A stretch of 64,000 bases of DNA from Novosphingobium huizhouense (GTDB taxonomy: Bacteria; Pseudomonadota; Alphaproteobacteria; Sphingomonadales; Sphingomonadaceae): NCBI RefSeq assembly GCF_020179475.1, contig NZ_JAILXZ010000003.1, positions 62,001-126,000 on the forward strand, read 5' to 3'. The translations under genes and the position numbers were made by a program. The notes under the pieces are model-generated. The model saw only the letters and a list, made by a program, of their open reading frames with translations, was not told where the DNA came from and searched no databases. Numbering within the stretch: position 1 is the first letter of the stretch; each line of letters starts with the position of its first letter. Positions 17,345 to 45,523 of this stretch are shown here, piece by piece.

Positions 17345-17372
17345 TTGCATCGGTCCGTCCATGGAACATAAT
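17345..17372 (+). promoter_or_regulatory. Candidate imuA promoter overlapping the LexA box
   Basis: TTGCAT (17345-17350) and CATAAT (17367-17372) are separated by 16 bases. The -10 hexamer lies largely in the spacer of the LexA box, so bound LexA would block RNA polymerase directly. Confidence 0.55.
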
Positions 17373-17378
17373 AAGAAC
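17364..17378 (+). promoter_or_regulatory. LexA (SOS) box upstream of imuA
   Basis: GAAC-ATAATAA-GAAC is an exact match to the alphaproteobacterial LexA operator GAAC-N7-GAAC. It ends 17 bases before the imuA start codon. It places imuA-imuB under SOS control, as expected for the mutasome. Confidence 0.9.
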
Positions 17379-17395: not shown

Positions 17396-18175
17396 ATGCA
17401 CCTGTCCAACTCGTCCGTTCCTTCCGGCCTTCCGCCTGGTCTTGTCCGCGGCCTTGCCGCATCGACGCGCGCGGGCCGGTGGCGTCCGGGGCTCGCCACC
17501 GGCTGCCGCCATGCCGAGATCTTTGCGCCCGCAGGCGAAGGCAGCGGCGCGGGCCTTGCCCTTGCCCTCGCGCGCGAAGCGCTGAAGAACGAAGGCTGGC
17601 GCTGTGCTCCCGGCGATCCTGCCGCCGATACGCCCGACGAGCGCGCCTGGCTCTGGGTGCAGGACAAGGCCGCGCGTCGCTTGTCGGGCCGGCCCTATCG
17701 CCCGGGCCTGCCGCCCGACTTGCGCCACCGCCTGATCCACGTCGCCGCCGACAAGCCCGAGGACGCGCTGTTCGCGCTGGAGGAGGCCTTGCGCTGCCGG
17801 GATCTCGCCTTCGTCATCGGCGAGATTGCGGGCAACCCCAAGGCGCTCGATTTCACCGCCTCGCGCCGATTGAGCCTCGCGGCCGAAAGGCACGGCGTGC
17901 CGCTCTGGCTGGTGCGGCTCGATGCCGCCTGCGATCTCGGCTCGGCGCGGATGCGCTGGAAAGTGGTCGCCGCGCCATCGCCGGCGCCGCGCTGGAATGC
18001 CCATGCCCCGGGCGATCCCACCTGGCGCGCCGAGCTGTTCCGCGCCCACACCTTCCAACCCGGACAATGGACCTTGCGCGATGACGCCTCCGCCCTCGCT
18101 GTCTCCCCCGCTTTCGAGGCGGGTGCTGGCGATCTGGTGCGCGCACCTGGCGATCGATCGTTGGCGGCTGGCTGA
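17396..18175 (+). CDS. imuA: SOS mutasome protein ImuA (RecA-like)
   Basis: 259 residues from ATG 17396. The ImuA family pattern is present: GCRHAEIFAPAGEGSGAGLALALA (split here as GCRHAEIFAP and AGLALALA), then AFVIGEIAG and a RecA-like core in which I see no functional Walker A P-loop. ImuA is the cofactor that, with ImuB, directs DnaE2 to damaged DNA during SOS mutagenesis. It carries a perfect LexA box and a promoter-like sequence upstream and overlaps imuB by 95 bases. dnaE2 is not in this operon; it lies 5 kb downstream behind its own LexA box. Confidence 0.92.
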   Translation: MHLSNSSVPSGLPPGLVRGLAASTRAGRWRPGLATGCRHAEIFAPAGEGSGAGLALALAREALKNEGWRCAPGDPAADTPDERAWLWVQDKAARRLSGRPYRPGLPPDLRHRLIHVAADKPEDALFALEEALRCRDLAFVIGEIAGNPKALDFTASRRLSLAAERHGVPLWLVRLDAACDLGSARMRWKVVAAPSPAPRWNAHAPGDPTWRAELFRAHTFQPGQWTLRDDASALAVSPAFEAGAGDLVRAPGDRSLAAG

Positions 18176-19661
18176 GGGCTGCGACAGGGGGCGCGACGCC
18201 GATGCGGCCCCCGTCGTGCTGGTCGGCGAAAGCGCGCACGGCCCGCGCATCGCCGCGGTCAATGCCGCCGCGCAGGCGCAAGGGGCGGTGGTGGGCACGA
18301 TGCTCGCCGATGCCCGCGCGCTGTGCCCGGGGCTCGTCGTCCATCCCGCCGATCCTGCCGGCGATCTCGCCTTTCTCGAAGGCCTCGCGCTCTGGGCGCA
18401 GCGCTGGGGGCCGTGGAGCGCGCTCGATCCGCCCGATGGAGTGATCGTCGACACCACTGGCGCCGCGCACCTGTTCGGCGGCGAGCAGGCGCTGGTCGCG
18501 GATGCCCTGCGCCTGCTGCAGCGGCGGGGCCTTGCCGCGCGCGTCGCGCTCGCGCCCACCGCCGGCGCGGCCTGGGCGCTTGCCCATCACGGTCCGCAAG
18601 GCGCGATCCTGGCGGGCGGCGAGGACGTCGCCCGCCGCCTCGGCGCGCTGCCGGTGGCGGCGCTGCGGCTCGACGACGATGTCCTGCTGCTGTTGCGTCG
18701 CTTGGGGCTCAAGCGGATCGAGGATCTCGCTTCGGTCGAACGCGAGAACCTCGCCCGGCGTTTCCGCAACCGCCGCTCGCCCGCCGCCAATCCGCTCGTC
18801 CGGCTCGACCAGTTGCTCGGCCGCGTGCCCGAGCCGGCGCTGCCGGTGATCGGGGTGGAGGCGCCGATGGTCCAGCGCCGGCTGATGGAGCCGATCCGCC
18901 ACCGCAGCCTGCTCGACCGCGTCGTCGCCGACCTGGCCGGGGACATGGCGCGCGCGCTCGAAGGGCGCGGGCAGGGGGCGCGGCGGCTCGAACTGGGGCT
19001 GTGGAAGGTCGATGGCGAGGTCTTGGTGCGGCGGCTCGAGATGGCCGCCGCCTCGCGCGATCCGGCGCATCTGGTGCGCCTGTTCGCGGCGCGGCTCGAC
19101 GATGTCGATGCAGGCTTCGGCATCGAACTGGTGCGGATGCGCGCTTCGTGGACCGAGCCGCTGGCGCTGGCGCAGAGCGATCTCGAGGCCGCGGCCGAGA
19201 ACCACGGCACCAGCCTTGCCGCCTGCATCGACCGGCTGACGGTGCGGCTGGGGCCGCAGGCGGTGCGCCGCCCGGCGCCCCAGGCGAGCCACCTGCCCGA
19301 ACGCGCGCAGCGCTGGCAGCCACCTCTCGCACCGGTGAAGACTTCACAGGAAGAATTCGAATTTCACCACAGGCCACTGAAACTGCTGGATAGACCCGAA
19401 TCGATCGCGGTCATCTACGCTGCTCCCGACGGCCTGCCGCGCGTGTTCGGGTGGCGCGGTCGGCGGCACGTGATCGCGCGCGCCGAAGGCCCGGAGCGGA
19501 TCGCGCCCGAGTGGTGGCGCGAACGCTCGAGCGTGCGCCTGCGCGACTACTACCGCATCGAGGACGAGGAAGGCCGGCGTTTCTGGATCTACCGCCACGG
19601 CATCGCAGGCGATGGCCGCGGCGGCATGCCCGAATGGTTCATCCAGGGGCTATCGGCCTAG
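18081..19661 (+). CDS. imuB: SOS mutasome protein ImuB (inactive Y-family polymerase)
   Basis: 526 residues from ATG 18081, which overlaps imuA by 95 bases; a GTG at 18123 (just before AIWCAHLAIDRWR) is a plausible later start that would shorten the overlap to 53. Y-family palm, fingers and little-finger order is recognisable (AAQAQGAVVGTMLADARALC; DTTGAAHLFGGEQAL; helix-hairpin-helix RLGLKRIEDLASV), but the catalytic Asp/Glu residues of active Y polymerases are absent, as in ImuB. The C-terminal segment with GPERIAPEWW is the ImuB-specific extension. It acts as the hub joining beta clamp, ImuA and DnaE2. I did not find an unambiguous clamp-binding pentapeptide in it. Confidence 0.93.
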   Translation: MTPPPSLSPPLSRRVLAIWCAHLAIDRWRLAEGCDRGRDADAAPVVLVGESAHGPRIAAVNAAAQAQGAVVGTMLADARALCPGLVVHPADPAGDLAFLEGLALWAQRWGPWSALDPPDGVIVDTTGAAHLFGGEQALVADALRLLQRRGLAARVALAPTAGAAWALAHHGPQGAILAGGEDVARRLGALPVAALRLDDDVLLLLRRLGLKRIEDLASVERENLARRFRNRRSPAANPLVRLDQLLGRVPEPALPVIGVEAPMVQRRLMEPIRHRSLLDRVVADLAGDMARALEGRGQGARRLELGLWKVDGEVLVRRLEMAAASRDPAHLVRLFAARLDDVDAGFGIELVRMRASWTEPLALAQSDLEAAAENHGTSLAACIDRLTVRLGPQAVRRPAPQASHLPERAQRWQPPLAPVKTSQEEFEFHHRPLKLLDRPESIAVIYAAPDGLPRVFGWRGRRHVIARAEGPERIAPEWWRERSSVRLRDYYRIEDEEGRRFWIYRHGIAGDGRGGMPEWFIQGLSA

Positions 19662-19669
19662 CGCCCTGC

Positions 19670-20563
19670 TCAGACCGGTGGCGCCACCATGGCGCTCGCG
19701 GTCATTGCATCGAGCACTTCCTGCCGGTCGTCGGGATCGCGCCCCGCAAGGAAATCGAGCAGATTGGCCTTCAATCGTTCGACCTGCGTCGCGAACACGC
19801 CGTGCGGCTCGCCATCGTATTCGATCAGCGTCGATTGCGGCACCGCCCGCGCAACCGCGCGCCCCGTCGCCTCGATCGGCACGGTCTTGTCCGAGGTGCC
19901 GTGGATCACCAGCGTCGGCACGGTGAAGGCGGGCAGGTCGGGGCGGAAGTCGGTCGTGGCGAAGGCCTTGGCGGCGGCGAGCGTCGGGCGCAGCCCCGCC
20001 ATCATCGCCGTCGCCCACGACAACTGCAGCACTTCGTCGCTGACCGGCTGGCTGATCCAGCCGACGCCGTAGAACTCCTTGAAGAACGTGGCCATGAACT
20101 TGGCGCGATCCTCCAGCATGCCGTCGGTCATCTGGTCGAAGGTCGCCTGCGGCACGCCATCGGGGTTGTCGTCGGTCTGGAGCATGTAGGGCACGACCGA
20201 CGAGACCAGCGCCACGCGCGCCACGCCGCGCCCGCCATGGCGCGACATGTAGCGCGCGATCTCGCCGCCGCCCATCGAGAAGCCGACCAGCGAAACGTTC
20301 TCGGTCGCGCCGGTCGCGGCCATCACATCGGCAAGGTCGTCGGCGAAGGTGTCGTAGTCGTAACCGCCCGAGGGCTGGTCCGACCGGCCGAAGCCGCGCC
20401 GGTCGTAGGCGATCGCGCGGTAGCCCGCTTCGGCCAGCGCATGGCTGATCGGGTCCCACGAATCGCCCGACAGCGGCCAGCCGTGGATCAGGATCACGGG
20501 CGCGCCGTCGCCCCAGGACTTGACGTAGAGACTGGTCCCGTCGCGGGTCTCGATCATCGGCAT
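19670..20563 (-). CDS. Alpha/beta hydrolase (cofactor-free haloperoxidase / arylesterase type)
   Basis: 297 residues from ATG 20563, with GGAG about 11 bases upstream; an internal ATG two codons on is also possible. Motifs: oxyanion region HGWPLSGDSWD, nucleophile elbow GFSMGG, acid D in GTSDKTVP and the final His in GEPHGVF, in the order of the non-haem chloroperoxidase subfamily. It probably hydrolyses small esters. It lies between the two SOS operons, convergent with imuB (stops 8 bases apart) and divergent from the radical-SAM gene, so the second LexA box is in its upstream region too. Confidence 0.92.
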   Translation of the reverse strand: MPMIETRDGTSLYVKSWGDGAPVILIHGWPLSGDSWDPISHALAEAGYRAIAYDRRGFGRSDQPSGGYDYDTFADDLADVMAATGATENVSLVGFSMGGGEIARYMSRHGGRGVARVALVSSVVPYMLQTDDNPDGVPQATFDQMTDGMLEDRAKFMATFFKEFYGVGWISQPVSDEVLQLSWATAMMAGLRPTLAAAKAFATTDFRPDLPAFTVPTLVIHGTSDKTVPIEATGRAVARAVPQSTLIEYDGEPHGVFATQVERLKANLLDFLAGRDPDDRQEVLDAMTASAMVAPPV

Positions 20564-20691: not shown

Positions 20692-20706
20692 GAACATATA
20701 AGGAAC
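20692..20706 (+). promoter_or_regulatory. LexA (SOS) box upstream of the radical-SAM / UdgX / dnaE2 operon
   Basis: GAAC-ATATAAG-GAAC matches GAAC-N7-GAAC exactly. It ends two bases before the ATG at 20709 and contains both a -10-like TATAAG (20697-20702) and the AGGA that would serve as ribosome binding site. LexA bound here would cover promoter and start codon. Confidence 0.88.
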
Positions 20707-20708
20707 AA

Positions 20709-21956
20709 ATGACCCGGCAATCCGTGATGGAACGACTCGAAATCCTGGCCGACGCCGCCAAGTACGATGCTTCCTGCGCCTCGTCGGGCACGGCCAGGCG
20801 CAACAGCAAGGGCGGGAAAGGGATCGGCTCGACCGAAGGCATGGGCATCTGCCACGCCTATGCGCCCGATGGCCGCTGCATCTCGCTGCTCAAGATCCTG
20901 CTGACCAACCACTGTGTGTTCGATTGCCACTACTGCATCAACCGCAAGAGTTCGAACACGCGGCGCGCGCGCTTCACCCCGCAAGAGGTGGTGGACCTGA
21001 CGCTGGCGTTCTACCGCCGCAACTACATCGAAGGGCTGTTCCTTTCCTCGGGCATCGTCAAAAGCTCCAGCCACACCATGGAACAGTTGATAGAAGTCGC
21101 ACGCATCCTTCGGGCAGAACACGATTTTCGCGGGTACATCCACCTCAAGACGATCCCCGAGGCCGATCCCGAGCTGGTCGCGCGCGCCGGGCTCTACGCC
21201 GATCGCGTGTCGATCAACGTCGAACTGCCGACGGTTGCTGGCCTCACCCGCCTCGCGCCTGACAAATCGGCGGGGCAGATCGAAGGCGCGATGGGCACGG
21301 TCAAGGCCGCGATCGTCGAAGCCAAGGATGCCCGCACGAAGTTCAAGTCGGCTCCGAAGTTCGCGCCCGCCGGGCAGTCCACCCAGATGATCGTCGGCGC
21401 CGATGCGGCGAGCGATGCCGATATCGTCGGGCGCGCGAGCACGCTCTACGATCGCTTCGCCTTGCGCCGCGTCTATTACTCCGCGTTCAGCCCGATCCCC
21501 GACGCCAGCGCGGTCCTGCCGCTCAAGCGCCCGCCCTTGATCCGCGAGCACCGCCTGTACCAGTCGGACTGGCTGATGCGTTTCTACGGCTATGCCCCCG
21601 GCGAAGTGCAGCAGGTGACCGACGCCGGCGGCATGCTCCCGCTCGACATCGATCCCAAGCTCGCCTGGGCGCTCAAGTTCCGCGAGCGCTTTCCGGTCGA
21701 CGTCAATCGCGCTCCGCGCGAAGCGCTGCTGCGCGTGCCGGGGCTCGGCGTGCGCGCGGTCAACGCGATCCTCGCCGCGCGCCGCCAGCGTCGTTTGCGA
21801 CTCGACGACATCGCCCGGCTGACGGTCTCGCTCGCCAAGGTGCGCCCGTTCCTCGTCGCCGAGGACTGGCGCCCGGTGCTGCTGACCGACAAGGCCGACT
21901 TGCGCACGCTGGTCGCGCCCAGGAAGGCCGAGCAGCTCGAACTGTTCGTGGCATGA
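20709..21956 (+). CDS. Putative DNA modification/repair radical-SAM protein (TIGR03916 type)
   Basis: 415 residues from ATG 20709; ATG 20727 is an alternative start. The radical-SAM cluster motif is C69-xxx-C73-xx-C76 (CVFDCHYC), binding a 4Fe-4S cluster and S-adenosylmethionine. The N-terminal block KLEILADAAKYD-like (RLEILADAAKYDASCASSG) and GICHAYAPDGRCISLLK identify the family linked to UdgX. A helix-hairpin-helix DNA-binding segment lies near the C-terminus (LLRVPGLGVRAVNAIL). The protein ends in QLELF-VA (Q409-F413), close to the beta-clamp-binding consensus QL(S/D)LF. It overlaps the next gene by ATGA and is preceded by a LexA box. Reaction and substrate are unknown. Confidence 0.9.
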   Translation: MTRQSVMERLEILADAAKYDASCASSGTARRNSKGGKGIGSTEGMGICHAYAPDGRCISLLKILLTNHCVFDCHYCINRKSSNTRRARFTPQEVVDLTLAFYRRNYIEGLFLSSGIVKSSSHTMEQLIEVARILRAEHDFRGYIHLKTIPEADPELVARAGLYADRVSINVELPTVAGLTRLAPDKSAGQIEGAMGTVKAAIVEAKDARTKFKSAPKFAPAGQSTQMIVGADAASDADIVGRASTLYDRFALRRVYYSAFSPIPDASAVLPLKRPPLIREHRLYQSDWLMRFYGYAPGEVQQVTDAGGMLPLDIDPKLAWALKFRERFPVDVNRAPREALLRVPGLGVRAVNAILAARRQRRLRLDDIARLTVSLAKVRPFLVAEDWRPVLLTDKADLRTLVAPRKAEQLELFVA

Positions 21957-23395
21957 CCCCGTTTCGCGACATGCGCCTGCCGCACGCCTATCAGGTCACG
22001 CTCGGCGCGCCGGACGATTTCGAAGGCTGGCGGGATCAGGCGCGGCGGCTGGTCCAGTGCGACGTCCCGCCCGACCGCGTGGTATGGGATGCACCCGGCA
22101 GCGCGGCCACGGATCTCTTTGCCCAAGGCGACCGCCGCCTGCCCGTGCCGGCGGCTGGGGCGGCGCAACCGCGCGCGTCGCGTCAGTTCCTGCAACTTGC
22201 CCAAAGCGTCACCCTTCATTCTGATCCGGAAAGATTTTCCTTGCTGTACCGGTTGCTCTGGCGGCTGCAGGCGCAGCCCCGGCTGATGGAGGATGCCGCC
22301 GATGCCGATGTCGGGCAGGCCGACCGGCTGGCGCGGCAGGTGCGGCGCGACATCCACAAGATGCGCGCCTTCCTGCGCTTCCGCGTGGTCGAGGAGGACA
22401 GCGGCGCGGAACGCTACGTCGCCTGGTTCGAGCCCGAGCACCACATCCTGCGCGCCAATGCCGGGTTCTTCGTCCGCCGCTTCACCACCATGCGCTGGTC
22501 GATCCTCACGCCCCAGGGGACGCTCCACTGGGATGGCGAGAGCTTGCAGGAAGGCCCCCCGGCCGAACGCGCCGATGCGCCCAGTGGCGACCCCACCGAG
22601 GACCTGTGGCGCCGCTACTATGCGTCGATCTTCAACCCCGCGCGTTTGAAGATCGGGGCGATGCTCAAGGAGATGCCCCGCAAGTACTGGAAGAACATGC
22701 CCGAAGCGGCGCTCATTCCCGAGCTCGTCGCCACGGCCCAGGCGCGCGAGGCGACGATGGTGGATAGCGGCAGGTCGATGTTCGAGGACGCGGAGCGCCC
22801 GGCGAACCTCGAGCAGATTGCGAACATGATCGAGGCCTGCCGCCGCTGCCCGATCGGCTGCAACGGCACCCATGCCGTGGCGGGCGAAGGGCCTTCACGC
22901 GCGCCGCTGATGATCGTCGGCGAGCAGCCCGGCGATGTCGAGGAACAGCAGGGGCGGCCGTTCGTCGGCCCGGCCGGGCGCCTGCTCCGTTCGCATCTCG
23001 AAGACGCGGGCCTCGATCTCGGCGCTGCCTGGCTCACCAATGCGGTCAAGCACTTCAAGTTCGTGCCGCGGGGCAAGCGACGGCTGCACCAGTCGCCCAC
23101 CGCCAAGGAGATCGACACCTGCCGCTGGTGGGTCGACAGCGAGCGCCTGCTGGTCCGTCCGCGGCTGATCCTCGCGCTCGGCGCCAGCGCGGCGCGCGGG
23201 CTGCTCGGCCGCACCGTCAGCGTGCAGAAGGAGCGCAGCCGGCCCCATGCGCTCGAGGATGGGGCGGAGCTGTGGATCACCACCCACCCCAGCTACCTGC
23301 TGCGGCTCCAGGATGACGCCAGGGCAGGCGAGGAGGCCCGCTTTGCGCAGGACTTGCGCACGGTCGCAGGGCGTCTTGCCGAGCTGACGTCATGA
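21953..23395 (+). CDS. DUF4130 domain fused to UdgX-type uracil-DNA glycosylase
   Basis: 480 residues, ATG overlapping the previous stop. The N-terminal half (about 75-255; SRQFLQLAQSVTLHSD, VRRDIHKMRAFLRFR, FVRRFTTMRWSILTP) is a DUF4130 domain. The C-terminal half is a family 4-like uracil-DNA glycosylase: iron-sulphur cysteines CRRCPIGC, motif A GEQPGD (323-328), GRPFVGPAGRLL, and HPSYLLR (H445). The loop KRRLH (H379) matches the UdgX-specific KRRIH loop whose His forms a covalent bond with the abasic sugar after uracil removal, so it should crosslink to uracil-DNA rather than turn over. Co-translated with the radical-SAM protein; dnaE2 follows 19 bases later. Confidence 0.92.
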   Translation: MTPFRDMRLPHAYQVTLGAPDDFEGWRDQARRLVQCDVPPDRVVWDAPGSAATDLFAQGDRRLPVPAAGAAQPRASRQFLQLAQSVTLHSDPERFSLLYRLLWRLQAQPRLMEDAADADVGQADRLARQVRRDIHKMRAFLRFRVVEEDSGAERYVAWFEPEHHILRANAGFFVRRFTTMRWSILTPQGTLHWDGESLQEGPPAERADAPSGDPTEDLWRRYYASIFNPARLKIGAMLKEMPRKYWKNMPEAALIPELVATAQAREATMVDSGRSMFEDAERPANLEQIANMIEACRRCPIGCNGTHAVAGEGPSRAPLMIVGEQPGDVEEQQGRPFVGPAGRLLRSHLEDAGLDLGAAWLTNAVKHFKFVPRGKRRLHQSPTAKEIDTCRWWVDSERLLVRPRLILALGASAARGLLGRTVSVQKERSRPHALEDGAELWITTHPSYLLRLQDDARAGEEARFAQDLRTVAGRLAELTS

Positions 23396-23414: not shown

Positions 23415-26400
23415 GTGCCCGAAGGACCGCTGACTCCCGAGCGGCGGCGGATCGAGCCCGAAGAGGACCTGCTTCCCCCGCTGCGCGCGCCGTTCGTCGA
23501 ACTGGGCCTCGTCACCTGCTTTTCCTTCCTGCGCGGCGCGTCCGACCCGGTCGATCTCGTCCTCCAGGCGCGCGCGCTCGGTTACGATGCGCTGGGCGTG
23601 GCCGACGTCAATTCGATGGCGGGCGTCGTGCGCATCCACACCGAAGCCCATGCACTGCGCCTGCGCCCGGTGATCGGCTGCCGGATCGAGACGGTCGAGG
23701 GGTTCGCCTTCCTCGCCTATCCCTCCGACCGCGCCGCCTACGGTCGCCTGTGCCGCCTGATCTCGGCCGCCCGCATGGCGACGCTCGACGGACAATGGCA
23801 GGCCAAGGGGGTGTGCGAGATCGACCTCGCGCTGCTCGCCGCGCATGGCGATGGCGTGCATCTCGTGCTGGTGCCGCCGCGTGATCTCGACCGCCGCTTT
23901 CCCCTCGGCGCGGGGAGCAACGTGGTCGCGCTGCACGATGACGCCAGCTTGCCCACAGCCGGGTCCACCGCTTTTGCCGAACTTGTCCCCCACCTTGTCC
24001 ACAGCCTGCCCACGCTGCGCCACCTCGCGGCAACGCCGCTCCATGCCGGCGACGACGTCGCCCGGATCGAGCGGCTCGACGCGCTGGCGCGCGCGCACGG
24101 CCTCGGCCTGCTCGCCACCAACGACGTGCTCTACCACGCGCCCGAGCGGCGGCCGCTGCAGGACGTGATGACCGCGATCCGCCACAAGACCACGGTCGAT
24201 CGCGCCGGCTATCTGCTCGAAGCCAATGGCGAACGGCACCTGAAGTCGCCCGAGGAGATGGTCCGGCTCTTCGCGCGCTGGCCGCACGCGATTGCCGCCG
24301 CGCGCGATCTCGCCGATGCCTGCCGCTTCAGCTTGAGCGAGTTGCGCTACGAATATCCCAAGGAAATCTGCCCTGAAGGCCACGATCCTCAGACTTGGCT
24401 TGAAGAACGGACATGGGCCGGCGCGGCGATCCGCTATCCCGCCGGCGTGCCCGAAAGCGTCGCCGACACGCTGCGCCGCGAACTTGAACTGATTGGCAAG
24501 CTCAACCTCGCGACCTATTTCCTCACGATCAAGGACATCGTCGATTTCGCGCGCGGCTGCGAGCCGCCGATCCTGTGCCAGGGGCGCGGCTCGGCGGCCA
24601 ATTCGGCGGTGTGCTACTGCCTGGAAATCACCGCAGTGGACCCTGCGCGCCACGCGCTGCTGTTCGATCGCTTCATCTCCGAGGAGCGCAAGGAGCCGCC
24701 CGACATCGACGTCGATTTCGAGCACGAGCGGCGCGAGGAGGTGATCCAGTACATTTACCGCCGCTACGGCCGCCAGCGCGCCGGGCTCTGCGCCACGGTG
24801 ATCCACTACCGCCCGCGCATGGCGGTGCGCGAGGTGGGCAAGGCGATGGGGCTGACCGAAGACGTCACCGCCGCATTGGCGCGCACCGTCTGGGGCGGCT
24901 GGGGCACCGAGATCGCCGAGAAGCACGTCGCCGAAACCGGGCTCGATCTGACGGATCCACACTTGAGACGGGTTCTGAAGTTGACGCAGCAGATGATCGG
25001 AATGCCGCGGCATCTTTCGCAGCACGTCGGCGGCTTCATCCTCACCCAGGGGCCGCTGACCGAGACCGTGCCGATCGGCAACGGGGCGATGCCCGAGCGC
25101 AGCTTCATCGAATGGGACAAGGACGACATCGATGCCTTGGGCATCCTCAAGGTCGATGTGCTCGCGCTCGGCATGCTCACCTGCATTGCCAAGTGCCTCG
25201 ACCTCCTGCGCGCGCACCACGGGCAGGACCTGACTCTCGCCAGCGTCCCGCGCGAGGACCCGGCGGTCTACGACATGCTGTGCAAGGGGGATTCGCTGGG
25301 CGTGTTCCAGGTCGAGAGCCGTGCGCAGATGAACATGCTGCCTCGCCTGCGCCCGCGCGAATTCTACGACCTTGTCGTGCAGGTGGCGATCGTCCGGCCC
25401 GGGCCGATCCAGGGCGACATGGTCCACCCCTACCTCAAGCGGCGGCGCGGGGACGAGGCGGTGACGATCCCCGCGCCCGACCCGCGCCACGGTCCCCCGG
25501 ATGAACTCAGTGCGATCCTCGGGCGGACATACGGCGTGCCGATCTTCCAGGAACAGGCGATGAAGATCGCGCTCGACGCGGCAAAGTTCTCCAGCCGCGA
25601 AGCCAACCGCCTGCGCAAGGCGATGGCGACCTTCCGCAGCCGCGGCATGGTCGACGAACTGCAGGACATGATGGTCGGGCGGATGATCGAGCGTGGCTAC
25701 GATCCCGACTTCGCCGCGCGCTGCTTCGACCAGATCAAGGGCTTCGGCGAATACGGCTTTCCCGAAAGCCACGCGGCGAGCTTCGCGCACCTCGTCTACG
25801 TCTCGTCGTGGCTCAAGTGCCATTATCCTGCGGCCTTCGCCTGCGCGCTGCTCAACTCGCAGCCGATGGGCTTCTACGCCCCGGCGCAGATCGTCCACGA
25901 CGCCGCCCAGCACGGCGTCGTCGTGCTTCCCGCCGACGTCAACCACTCGGACTGGGACTGCACGTTGGAGGTTCAGGGCGATGAGGATGTTTCGCGCAGA
26001 GGCGCAGAGGCGCAGAGGGAAGAAGGAACGGGTTCGCGCAGAGACCGCAGGGAGCGCAGAGAGGGGGCGCGCGGCGGCGAAGCCGCTTTGCTTTCAGATG
26101 GCGATGCCGGAAGACATCCCGCCTGCGGCGGGCAGGGCCTCTCTGCGCCCTCTGCGGTCTCTGCGCGAAACCACCTGCCGTCTTCCTCGCCTCCGCGCGA
26201 AACCAGAATCGCCCTGCGCCTCGGCCTGCGCCAGATCGATGGCCTGGCCGAACACGCCGCCGCCGCGCTGGTGTCGGCGCGGGGTGAGGGCGGGGCCTTC
26301 GCCGATGCCGCCGCGCTCAAGGATCGGGCGGGGCTGTCGCCGGCGGTGATCGAGCGCCTGGCCGCCGCCGATGCGCTGGGCTCGCTCGGCCTGTCGCGGC

Positions 26401-27107
26401 GCCAGGCGCTATGGGATGCGCGCAGCCTGATCGCCGCGCCAGACCTGCCGCTGTTCGCTGCCGCCGCCGCGCGCGACCAGGGAACCGAGCGCAGCGTCAC
26501 CCGCCTGCCGGCCATGCCGCTGTCAGAGGAAGTCGTTGCCGATTACCAGACCCAGCGCCTGTCGCTGAAGGCGCACCCGATGGCCTTCCTGCGCGCCGGC
26601 CTTGCCGAGCGCGGCTTCGTGCGCGCCTGCGACCTGCGCCAGCGCAAGTTCCGGTCGATGGTCCATGTCGCCGGGGTGGTGCTGATCCGCCAGCAGCCGG
26701 GGTCGGCCAAGGGGGTGTGCTTCATCACGCTCGAGGACGAGACCGGCGTGGTCAACCTCGTCGTCTGGCCCGATCTCAAGGAGAAGCAGCGCAAGGTGGT
26801 GATGGGCGCGCGGCTGATGGAAGTGCGCGGTCGCGTCGAATACGACGACGAGGTGATCCACGTGATTGCCGCGCATCTCACCGACGCCAGCGCCGCGCTC
26901 AATGCCCTGTCCGACGCGACACTGGCGCCTCCGCTGGCGCGCGCCGATCACGTCAACAACCCGCTGCCGAGCCATATGCGCGGCGCCGCGGTGTCGTTCC
27001 CGCCCGAGGAACCTTTCGTTGCCCCGCCCGGCAATCGCGAATGTGGCTACCATCGCAGCCATCCGCGCGACGTGCGGATCATTCCCAAGTCGCGCGACTT
27101 CCATTGA
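23415..27107 (+). CDS. dnaE2: Error-prone DNA polymerase DnaE2
   Basis: 1230 residues from GTG 23415 with GGAGGG 5 bases upstream. Order: a PHP domain with degraded metal ligands (about 27-260), PolIII-alpha palm with GRGSAANSAVCYCLEIT and catalytic aspartates D432/D434 in PDIDVDF, fingers (SQHVGGFILTQGP; FGEYGFPESHAASFAHLVY), helix-hairpin-helix, a DLPLF peptide (about 1010-1014) resembling a clamp-binding motif, and an OB fold near 1070-1140. It performs translesion and mutagenic synthesis in the SOS response with ImuA and ImuB. Residues about 859-930, between CTLE and LRLGLRQIDGL, are encoded by a palindromic repeat and have no counterpart in the family. Confidence 0.96.
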   Translation: MPEGPLTPERRRIEPEEDLLPPLRAPFVELGLVTCFSFLRGASDPVDLVLQARALGYDALGVADVNSMAGVVRIHTEAHALRLRPVIGCRIETVEGFAFLAYPSDRAAYGRLCRLISAARMATLDGQWQAKGVCEIDLALLAAHGDGVHLVLVPPRDLDRRFPLGAGSNVVALHDDASLPTAGSTAFAELVPHLVHSLPTLRHLAATPLHAGDDVARIERLDALARAHGLGLLATNDVLYHAPERRPLQDVMTAIRHKTTVDRAGYLLEANGERHLKSPEEMVRLFARWPHAIAAARDLADACRFSLSELRYEYPKEICPEGHDPQTWLEERTWAGAAIRYPAGVPESVADTLRRELELIGKLNLATYFLTIKDIVDFARGCEPPILCQGRGSAANSAVCYCLEITAVDPARHALLFDRFISEERKEPPDIDVDFEHERREEVIQYIYRRYGRQRAGLCATVIHYRPRMAVREVGKAMGLTEDVTAALARTVWGGWGTEIAEKHVAETGLDLTDPHLRRVLKLTQQMIGMPRHLSQHVGGFILTQGPLTETVPIGNGAMPERSFIEWDKDDIDALGILKVDVLALGMLTCIAKCLDLLRAHHGQDLTLASVPREDPAVYDMLCKGDSLGVFQVESRAQMNMLPRLRPREFYDLVVQVAIVRPGPIQGDMVHPYLKRRRGDEAVTIPAPDPRHGPPDELSAILGRTYGVPIFQEQAMKIALDAAKFSSREANRLRKAMATFRSRGMVDELQDMMVGRMIERGYDPDFAARCFDQIKGFGEYGFPESHAASFAHLVYVSSWLKCHYPAAFACALLNSQPMGFYAPAQIVHDAAQHGVVVLPADVNHSDWDCTLEVQGDEDVSRRGAEAQREEGTGSRRDRRERREGARGGEAALLSDGDAGRHPACGGQGLSAPSAVSARNHLPSSSPPRETRIALRLGLRQIDGLAEHAAAALVSARGEGGAFADAAALKDRAGLSPAVIERLAAADALGSLGLSRRQALWDARSLIAAPDLPLFAAAAARDQGTERSVTRLPAMPLSEEVVADYQTQRLSLKAHPMAFLRAGLAERGFVRACDLRQRKFRSMVHVAGVVLIRQQPGSAKGVCFITLEDETGVVNLVVWPDLKEKQRKVVMGARLMEVRGRVEYDDEVIHVIAAHLTDASAALNALSDATLAPPLARADHVNNPLPSHMRGAAVSFPPEEPFVAPPGNRECGYHRSHPRDVRIIPKSRDFH
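25989..26203. repeat. Nested palindromic repeat inserted in frame in dnaE2
   Basis: The outer arms are GTTTCGCGCAGAGG at 25989 and its imperfect complement ending at 26203. Inside is a second, better palindrome (26031-26172): about 34 bases beginning GGTTCGCGCAGAGACCGCAG on the left match the complement of the right arm ending TCTCTGCGCGAAACC. The right outer arm is more diverged. The element keeps the dnaE2 frame open and adds about 72 low-complexity residues (RRGAEAQREE... RRDRRERREGARG). It carries no transposase and resembles a MITE or REP-type element; insertion in frame recalls rickettsial palindromic elements. Confidence 0.8.
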
Positions 27108-45314: not shown

Positions 45315-45374
45315 CTTGGGCAGCGCCTTGCCGTCTGGGGCGGGGTTTGTCGAGGGGGTGCGGGGGAAGGGATT

Positions 45375-45523
45375 GGTTCGCGCAGAGATCGCAGAGATCG
45401 CAGAGAGATCACTTCGGGCGGCGAGGCCGTCTGCCTGTCTTATTGTCGAATGATGAAACGTTCCGCCTTCGGCGGACGAATGTTGTTTGCTTCTCTGCGA
45501 ACCCTGCGGTCTCTGCGCGAACC
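45375..45523. repeat. 149-base palindromic repeat between trpD and trpC
   Basis: Left arm GGTTCGCGCAGAGATCGCAG... (45375-45406) and right arm ...GGTCTCTGCGCGAACC (ending 45523) are about 32-base imperfect inverted repeats, close in sequence to the inner repeat in dnaE2. The centre has a GAAACGTTCCGCCTTCGGCGGAC hairpin-like segment. It sits inside the trp transcript and could affect trpC expression. Confidence 0.8.

Follow-up and report, generated by a model that had tools for sequence, protein, structure and literature searches.

A DUF4130-UdgX fusion protein of Novosphingobium huizhouense and its predicted place in a LexA-controlled operon with a radical-SAM protein

The fusion gene and its operon

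In this study, we analyze a fusion gene in a 64,000-nucleotide stretch of Novosphingobium huizhouense (contig NZ_JAILXZ010000003.1, positions 62,001 to 126,000 of the forward strand; the whole stretch is the window), together with the radical S-adenosylmethionine (SAM) protein gene in front of it and the error-prone polymerase gene dnaE2 behind it (Table 1). The fusion joins a DUF4130 domain to a uracil-DNA glycosylase (UDG) half of the UdgX type. An earlier note on this DNA had placed the gene at 21953-23395, and these coordinates are correct: it is one open reading frame (ORF), from ATG to stop, encoding 480 amino acids (aa). The note's statement that DUF4130 is joined here to a genuine UdgX also holds, as both halves exceed the curated NCBIfam cut-offs (TIGR03915 and TIGR03914). 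The limits of about residues 75-255 given for DUF4130 need revision, however, for although the domain is present, the TIGR03915 match starts nearer residue 20 than 75. Pfam places DUF4130 (PF13566) at aa 92-251 (133.5 bits, cut-off 27) and UDG at aa 311-469. The fusion is not new as such; it is already catalogued and is common in Alphaproteobacteria, plasmid records with such fusions carry the label 'UdgX family uracil-DNA binding protein', and the TIGRFAMs notes for TIGR03914, TIGR03915 and TIGR03916 presumably mention that fusions occur. All three proteins of this NCBIfam trio lie far over their cut-offs here, in the same architecture, whereas the linkage to dnaE2 is a feature of this lineage.

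The radical-SAM gene, which had been named as the partner of the fusion, does lie directly upstream, and its stop codon overlaps the ATG of the fusion gene in the sequence ATGA at 21953-21956; dnaE2 begins 19 bases past the fusion stop codon. Among 80 related loci, some of which are cut by contig ends, 78 have the radical-SAM gene immediately before the fusion, 70 have dnaE2 immediately after it (median gap 16), and 65 have imuB further upstream within the stretch. The fusion would be the second product of a LexA-controlled damage operon made up of the radical-SAM gene, DUF4130::UdgX and dnaE2, standing beside imuAB. The alpha/beta hydrolase gene between imuB and the radical-SAM gene is not found in many of the related loci.

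Table 1. Features of the locus, in window coordinates
Feature	Position	Strand	Basis or remark
Fusion gene, DUF4130 (TIGR03915) + UdgX (TIGR03914), 480 aa	21953..23395	+	single ORF, ATG to stop; profile matches
DUF4130 / TIGR03915 part, aa 20-252	22010..22708	+	226.6 bits, cut-off 112.25
UdgX part, aa 254-471	22712..23365	+	TIGR03914, 299.3 bits, cut-off 189.95
UdgX motifs: A, GEQPG, aa 323-327; R-loop, KRRLH, 375-379; B, HPSYLLR, 445-451	within 22712..23365	+	sequence
H379 codon, equivalent of cross-linking H109 of M. smegmatis UdgX	23087..23089	+	alignment, invariance
Radical-SAM protein TIGR03916, C-terminal helix-hairpin-helix (HhH)	20709..21956	+	567.6 bits, cut-off 343.5
QLELF codons, sliding-clamp-binding-like motif at the radical-SAM C-terminus	21933..21947	+	conserved tail motif
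Predicted LexA box GAACATATAAGGAAC, upstream of the radical-SAM start	20692..20706	+	GAACN7GAAC match; conserved in relatives
Second predicted LexA box GAACATAATAAGAAC, before imuA	17364..17378	+	pattern match
dnaE2 (error-prone polymerase)	23415..27107	+	NF004225, 1381.5 bits, cut-off 939
imuA-like ORF	17396..18175	+	NF033429 weak, 28.1 bits (cut-off 150); position before imuB
imuB-like ORF (IMS, DUF6504)	17922..19661	+	Pfam; listed start probably too far upstream
Alpha/beta hydrolase, between imuB and the radical-SAM gene	19670..20539	-	Pfam; not part of the module

Catalytic residues and cysteines of the UdgX half

The alignment bears out the claim that H379, the histidine of KRRLH, is the cross-linking residue, for its partner is the histidine of KRRIH in Mycobacterium smegmatis UdgX, and it is invariant in 81 of 81 fusions and in all 42 UdgX sequences found at loci of a spread sample of 299 Pseudomonadota genomes (the same set used for all three family searches below). 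The position of H379 follows from the alignment rather than from the model, because loop 373-379 has a predicted local distance difference test (pLDDT) score below 50. E324, Q325, N363, H445 and R451 are likewise invariant in the 81 fusions and, with H379, correspond to residues named as important in the accessible text of PMC10359453. In the 42 Pseudomonadota sequences N363, R377, H445 and R451 are kept throughout, as H379 is, and E324 and Q325 in 41; the sole exception is genome G155, where no GEQPG was found. The predicted UdgX domain superposes on solved UdgX-DNA complexes with Z 27.6 and a root-mean-square deviation (rmsd) of 2.1 over 196 residues. M. smegmatis UdgX (PDB 6ajo, 6iod, 6ail) is 41-43% identical to the domain and shares the GEQPG motif, the K-x-R-x-H loop and the HPSxLLR motif; however, the solved protein is UdgX alone, whereas here it is joined to DUF4130 in an operon with a LexA box and a radical-SAM gene.

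The iron-sulphur site that had been read in CRRCPIGC stands in part. C296 and C299 are conserved, but C303 is not, its place being taken elsewhere by R, K, E, P or A. C296, C299, C390 and H367 are invariant in the 81 fusions and are the candidate iron-sulphur ligands. Seven loci of the Pseudomonadota sample, L187-L191 and L195 (genomes G028, G091, G271, G143, G151 and G167) and L193 (G277), have fusions without C296, C299 and C390 that keep H379 and the other catalytic residues, which suggests UdgX proteins without an iron-sulphur cluster; six of them form one clade in the radical-SAM tree.

Co-occurrence of the radical-SAM protein, DUF4130 and UdgX

Over cut-off, the 299 genomes hold DUF4130 in 56, the radical-SAM protein (TIGR03916) in 53 and UdgX in 52. 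In every one of the 53 radical-SAM genomes DUF4130 shares contig and strand with the radical-SAM gene, the gap exceeding 500 bases in four. The linkage of the DUF4130 and UdgX modules, which the earlier note had drawn from the fusion, is seen across the sample, as UdgX is fused or adjacent to DUF4130 in 41 of the 56 DUF4130 genomes, with one further pair split by a contig end (G194). Nevertheless, 13 of the 53 radical-SAM genomes have no UdgX over cut-off anywhere (of 14 loci counted as lacking UdgX, that of G194 is interrupted by a contig end and its UdgX lies on a separate contig). Seven of these 13 (G046, G082, G099, G183, G196, G225 and G298) have UdgX matches below the cut-off, which are probably other family-4-like UDGs. 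A two-gene pair of radical-SAM protein and DUF4130 with no UdgX nearby is also present in Bacteroides finegoldii, Spirosoma oryzicola, Eubacterium eligens and Acinetobacter baumannii plasmids (four of 45 named records examined), so that the UdgX-less operon is found in Bacteroidota, Bacillota and Acinetobacter loci.

The conservation of DUF4130 was followed over 38 sites, which were defined on the 40 fused proteins only, G074 being excluded from the defining rows. Of these sites, the 12 proteobacterial-clade DUF4130s without UdgX lack 0 to 3, and G074, the thirteenth, which belongs to the non-fused outgroup clade, lacks 19. Three genomes of one genus (L124, L125 and L175, that is G287, G217 and G200) have DUF4130 without a radical-SAM gene, which this genus has lost in the three sampled genomes, and two of their DUF4130s are decayed, with 6 and 4 of the 38 sites missing, mostly in the C-terminal motif. 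Two of the three DUF4130 genes have an imuB-dnaE2 pair close by on the opposite strand.

These distributions bear on the suggestion of the earlier note that DUF4130 could be an adaptor for the covalent UdgX-DNA product. Such an adaptor would recruit this product or act on it, and the radical-SAM protein would assist in its resolution. The direct fusion, with only 4-7 bases between the TIGR03915 and TIGR03914 matches in most genomes of the sample, and the ATGA overlap with the radical-SAM gene are what such an adaptor would lead one to expect. However, the radical-SAM protein and DUF4130 persist without UdgX in the 13 genomes, where DUF4130 keeps most of its conserved sites, and UdgX-less operons occur in other phyla as well. 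Moreover, 10 of the 299 genomes have UdgX over cut-off and no DUF4130 over cut-off, so UdgX does not need the adaptor. We therefore regard a role of DUF4130 as UdgX adaptor as distinctly unlikely.

The same counts could mean that the two modules were fused through shared SOS use and co-regulation, with UdgX and the radical-SAM/DUF4130 pair acting on different lesions and without cooperation. Both halves do persist alone, in the 13 UdgX-less operons and in the 10 UdgX genomes without DUF4130 over cut-off, and in G071 the UdgX gene (L126, 7813-8652) is preceded by a DUF4130 relic, 35-50 residues long and with one stop in the matched part, a fusion that has come apart. Yet the junction is in frame and nearly constant in about 40 sample genomes with the radical-SAM gene, which exceeds what shared regulation needs, and we hold this explanation to be possible but doubtful.

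In a tree of 57 radical-SAM proteins (53 from the genomes and four from the named records), the radical-SAM protein and DUF4130 stay together throughout, while the presence of UdgX changes seven times, six of these changes being forced by well-supported branches, against about 15 with shuffled labels. The four named records and G074 lie on the far side of a long branch. On the simplest reading, UdgX would have joined once in the proteobacterial line and then been lost several times, a direction of loss versus gain that depends on the root (midpoint, with long branches meeting in the outgroup). Because of the 53 of 53 co-occurrence, the 13 UdgX-less genomes and the seven changes of UdgX on the tree, the radical-SAM protein and DUF4130 appear to form the core pair, with UdgX as an accessory. 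On this distribution DUF4130 is partnered primarily with the radical-SAM protein, and a predicted binding of DUF4130 to it fits.

The fold lists obtained with the model of the full-length fusion were filled by UDGs, and therefore DUF4130 was modelled alone (239 aa, 56 sequences, mean pLDDT 80.9, predicted template modelling score (pTM) 0.75). By sequence, no solved relative of DUF4130 was found, with one match at E 0.95, and Foldseek gave no match of the model in the PDB at E 0.001 (best 0.05). It is rather unlikely, in our view, that DUF4130 is a phosphoesterase-like or nucleotide-binding enzyme of reduced DHH/DHHA1 fold that serves the radical-SAM protein by trimming or binding DNA ends or nucleotides. 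The VIA-align list does consist mostly of DHH-superfamily chains, headed by RecJ (1ir6, Z 7.6, rmsd 4.4, 178 residues aligned) and followed by PAP phosphatase, family II pyrophosphatase, NrnA, DhhP and Cdc45, and the better matches in a second library, BFVD, include several DHH-type phage proteins (E 0.02-0.05), with a phage exopolyphosphatase, NrnB and RecJ among the matches; H135, R142, E160, R176 and R231 are invariant in 30 of 30 DUF4130s. Nevertheless, a Z below 8 is at noise level and the Foldseek E-values are 0.05 or worse, no Pfam DHH or DHHA1 match and no conserved DHH motif were seen, and homology to RecJ was not supported by profile comparison (hhalign probability 0.2%, no better than shuffled controls). 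A DHH-phosphoesterase-like fold is thus a weak structural lead.

Predicted LexA control, the clamp-binding-like tail and a proposed role

The alphaproteobacterial LexA consensus is GAACN7GAAC and that of the E. coli type is CTGTN8ACAG. Within the window alone the former is not significant (4 matches against a mean of 1.37, with 4 reached by 7 of 100 shuffles), so the claim of LexA control rests on conservation. The first box sits 2 bases before the likely radical-SAM start codon, and its position is kept in 77 of the 78 related loci that have enough upstream sequence. Searched from -200 to +30, GAACN7GAAC or its reverse is present in 36 of 36 alphaproteobacterial radical-SAM loci (1.9% in random 230-base windows) and CTGTN8ACAG in 12 of 17 non-alphaproteobacterial ones (background 1.4%), the box of the other class being found in no locus. 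A box is likewise present at nine of the 13 loci that lack UdgX; two of these nine are alphaproteobacterial and seven are not. The operon is accordingly predicted to be under LexA control.

Such control has a precedent for an operon encoding COG4277, which we take to be the TIGR03916 protein. SOS control of a COG1573-COG4277 'UDG base-excision' operon, like the present one a UDG with an HhH radical-SAM protein under LexA, is described in the accessible text of PMC8565304 for Bacteroidetes, with Verrucomicrobia and Alphaproteobacteria covered by citation, and the two are probably the same operon. That text speaks of a UDG only, whereas two Bacteroidota plasmid loci here (L133 and L136) have the radical-SAM protein and DUF4130 with no UdgX nearby, in contrast to the "UDG system" of the literature; some UDG calls in Bacteroidetes may come from DUF4130.

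The radical-SAM protein is highly conserved, and in 57 of 57 sequences not only the cysteines of CxxxCxxC (C69, C73 and C76) but also three preceding ones (C23, C48 and C57) are invariant; the latter may hold a second metal site. No convincing solved relative was found by sequence, the one match being to the HhH end (E 0.037). As to membership of the spore photoproduct lyase (SplB) family, no lyase model was among the NCBIfam matches at E 0.01, a direct comparison with SplB not having been made. The C-terminus ends in a motif resembling the bacterial sliding-clamp motif consensus. The strict form Q[LM]xLF occurs in the last 20 residues of 29 of the 57 proteins (shuffled 0.25%; internal windows 0 of 1083) and in 78 of 78 sphingomonad loci, and a looser form, Q[LM]xL[FWLIAD], widened after the tails had been viewed, in 48 of the 57 (shuffled 1.9%; internal windows 5 of 1083). 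The tail is therefore a putative clamp-binding site. The six-cysteine protein with a clamp-binding-like tail is found in several phyla.

We propose, with a probability of roughly 0.55, that the operon encodes an SOS-induced, clamp-tethered repair module whose core is the radical-SAM protein with DUF4130 and whose accessory UdgX caps abasic sites before bypass. The tail would bring the radical-SAM protein to the stalled fork, where it would probably act jointly with DUF4130 on a damaged base or nucleotide. Faced with uracil or a product resembling it, UdgX would remove the base and stay bound to the abasic sugar via H379, shielding it until bypass by DnaE2/ImuB or recombination, DnaE2 being the presumed bypass enzyme in Sphingomonadales. 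Several points weigh against this proposal. A DnaE-like gene lies within the fetched stretch in just 9 of the 53 radical-SAM loci, five of them in the family of the window and the remaining four in a single further family of the sample, and the link to DnaE2 is therefore local. Most proteobacterial operons do have UdgX, which may be more than an accessory in those lineages. The DUF4130 of G200 is intact despite the missing radical-SAM gene, the exact LexA box is missing in 5 of the 17 non-alphaproteobacterial loci, the model of the full-length fusion (pTM 0.48) predicts no domain contacts, and the tail motif was noticed first and counted after.

A more specific sequence of events, convert, excise, cap and bypass under SOS control, is quite unlikely to hold in all its steps: the clamp-tethered radical-SAM protein, perhaps with a second metal site, would convert a blocking base while DUF4130 holds the substrate, UdgX would excise and cap, and DnaE2 would pass. 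A phage or defence role was rejected, as PADLOC gave no match and no relative of DUF4130 was confirmed in viral contigs or phage records. Two scans of viral contigs for DUF4130 gave 7 and 58 stretches that matched the pattern, none of which was confirmed, and the fusion matched 16 phage records, with every match falling within the UDG half or directly ahead of it and none reaching 80% coverage of the query.

According to PMC10359453, what UdgX does physiologically is for the most part unknown. The position of UdgX beside a radical-SAM protein with a clamp-binding-like tail and an error-prone polymerase, behind a LexA box, offers a concrete and testable role, the capping of abasic sites during SOS. 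The focus shifts as well, for the conserved unit is the radical-SAM protein with DUF4130, and hence the UdgX-less operons, in which the chemistry is not masked by a glycosylase, are the place to begin looking for a radical DNA-repair reaction. Judged by its surroundings, the fusion would have as its true core partner a radical enzyme tethered to the replication machinery. DUF4130, the radical-SAM family and UDG are already linked in a network in a figure legend of PMC3765255 (the SRAP/ImuB-C paper). That network draws no line between the core pair and UdgX, and the UDG in it is not recognised as the cross-linking type. A literature search, with most subscription journals outside its scope, found no text on DUF4130 biochemistry among the papers listed and nothing that joins UdgX with radical SAM or with LexA, or 'clamp-binding motif' with radical SAM.

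The DnaE2 of the window has an in-frame insert of about 80 residues (aa about 853-931, window 25970-26207) that is missing from the DnaE2 of the nearest relative (L002). It looks like a palindromic repeat element, as it matches its own reverse strand, and there is a second copy at 45366-45521 and partial copies elsewhere in the genome (20 matches).

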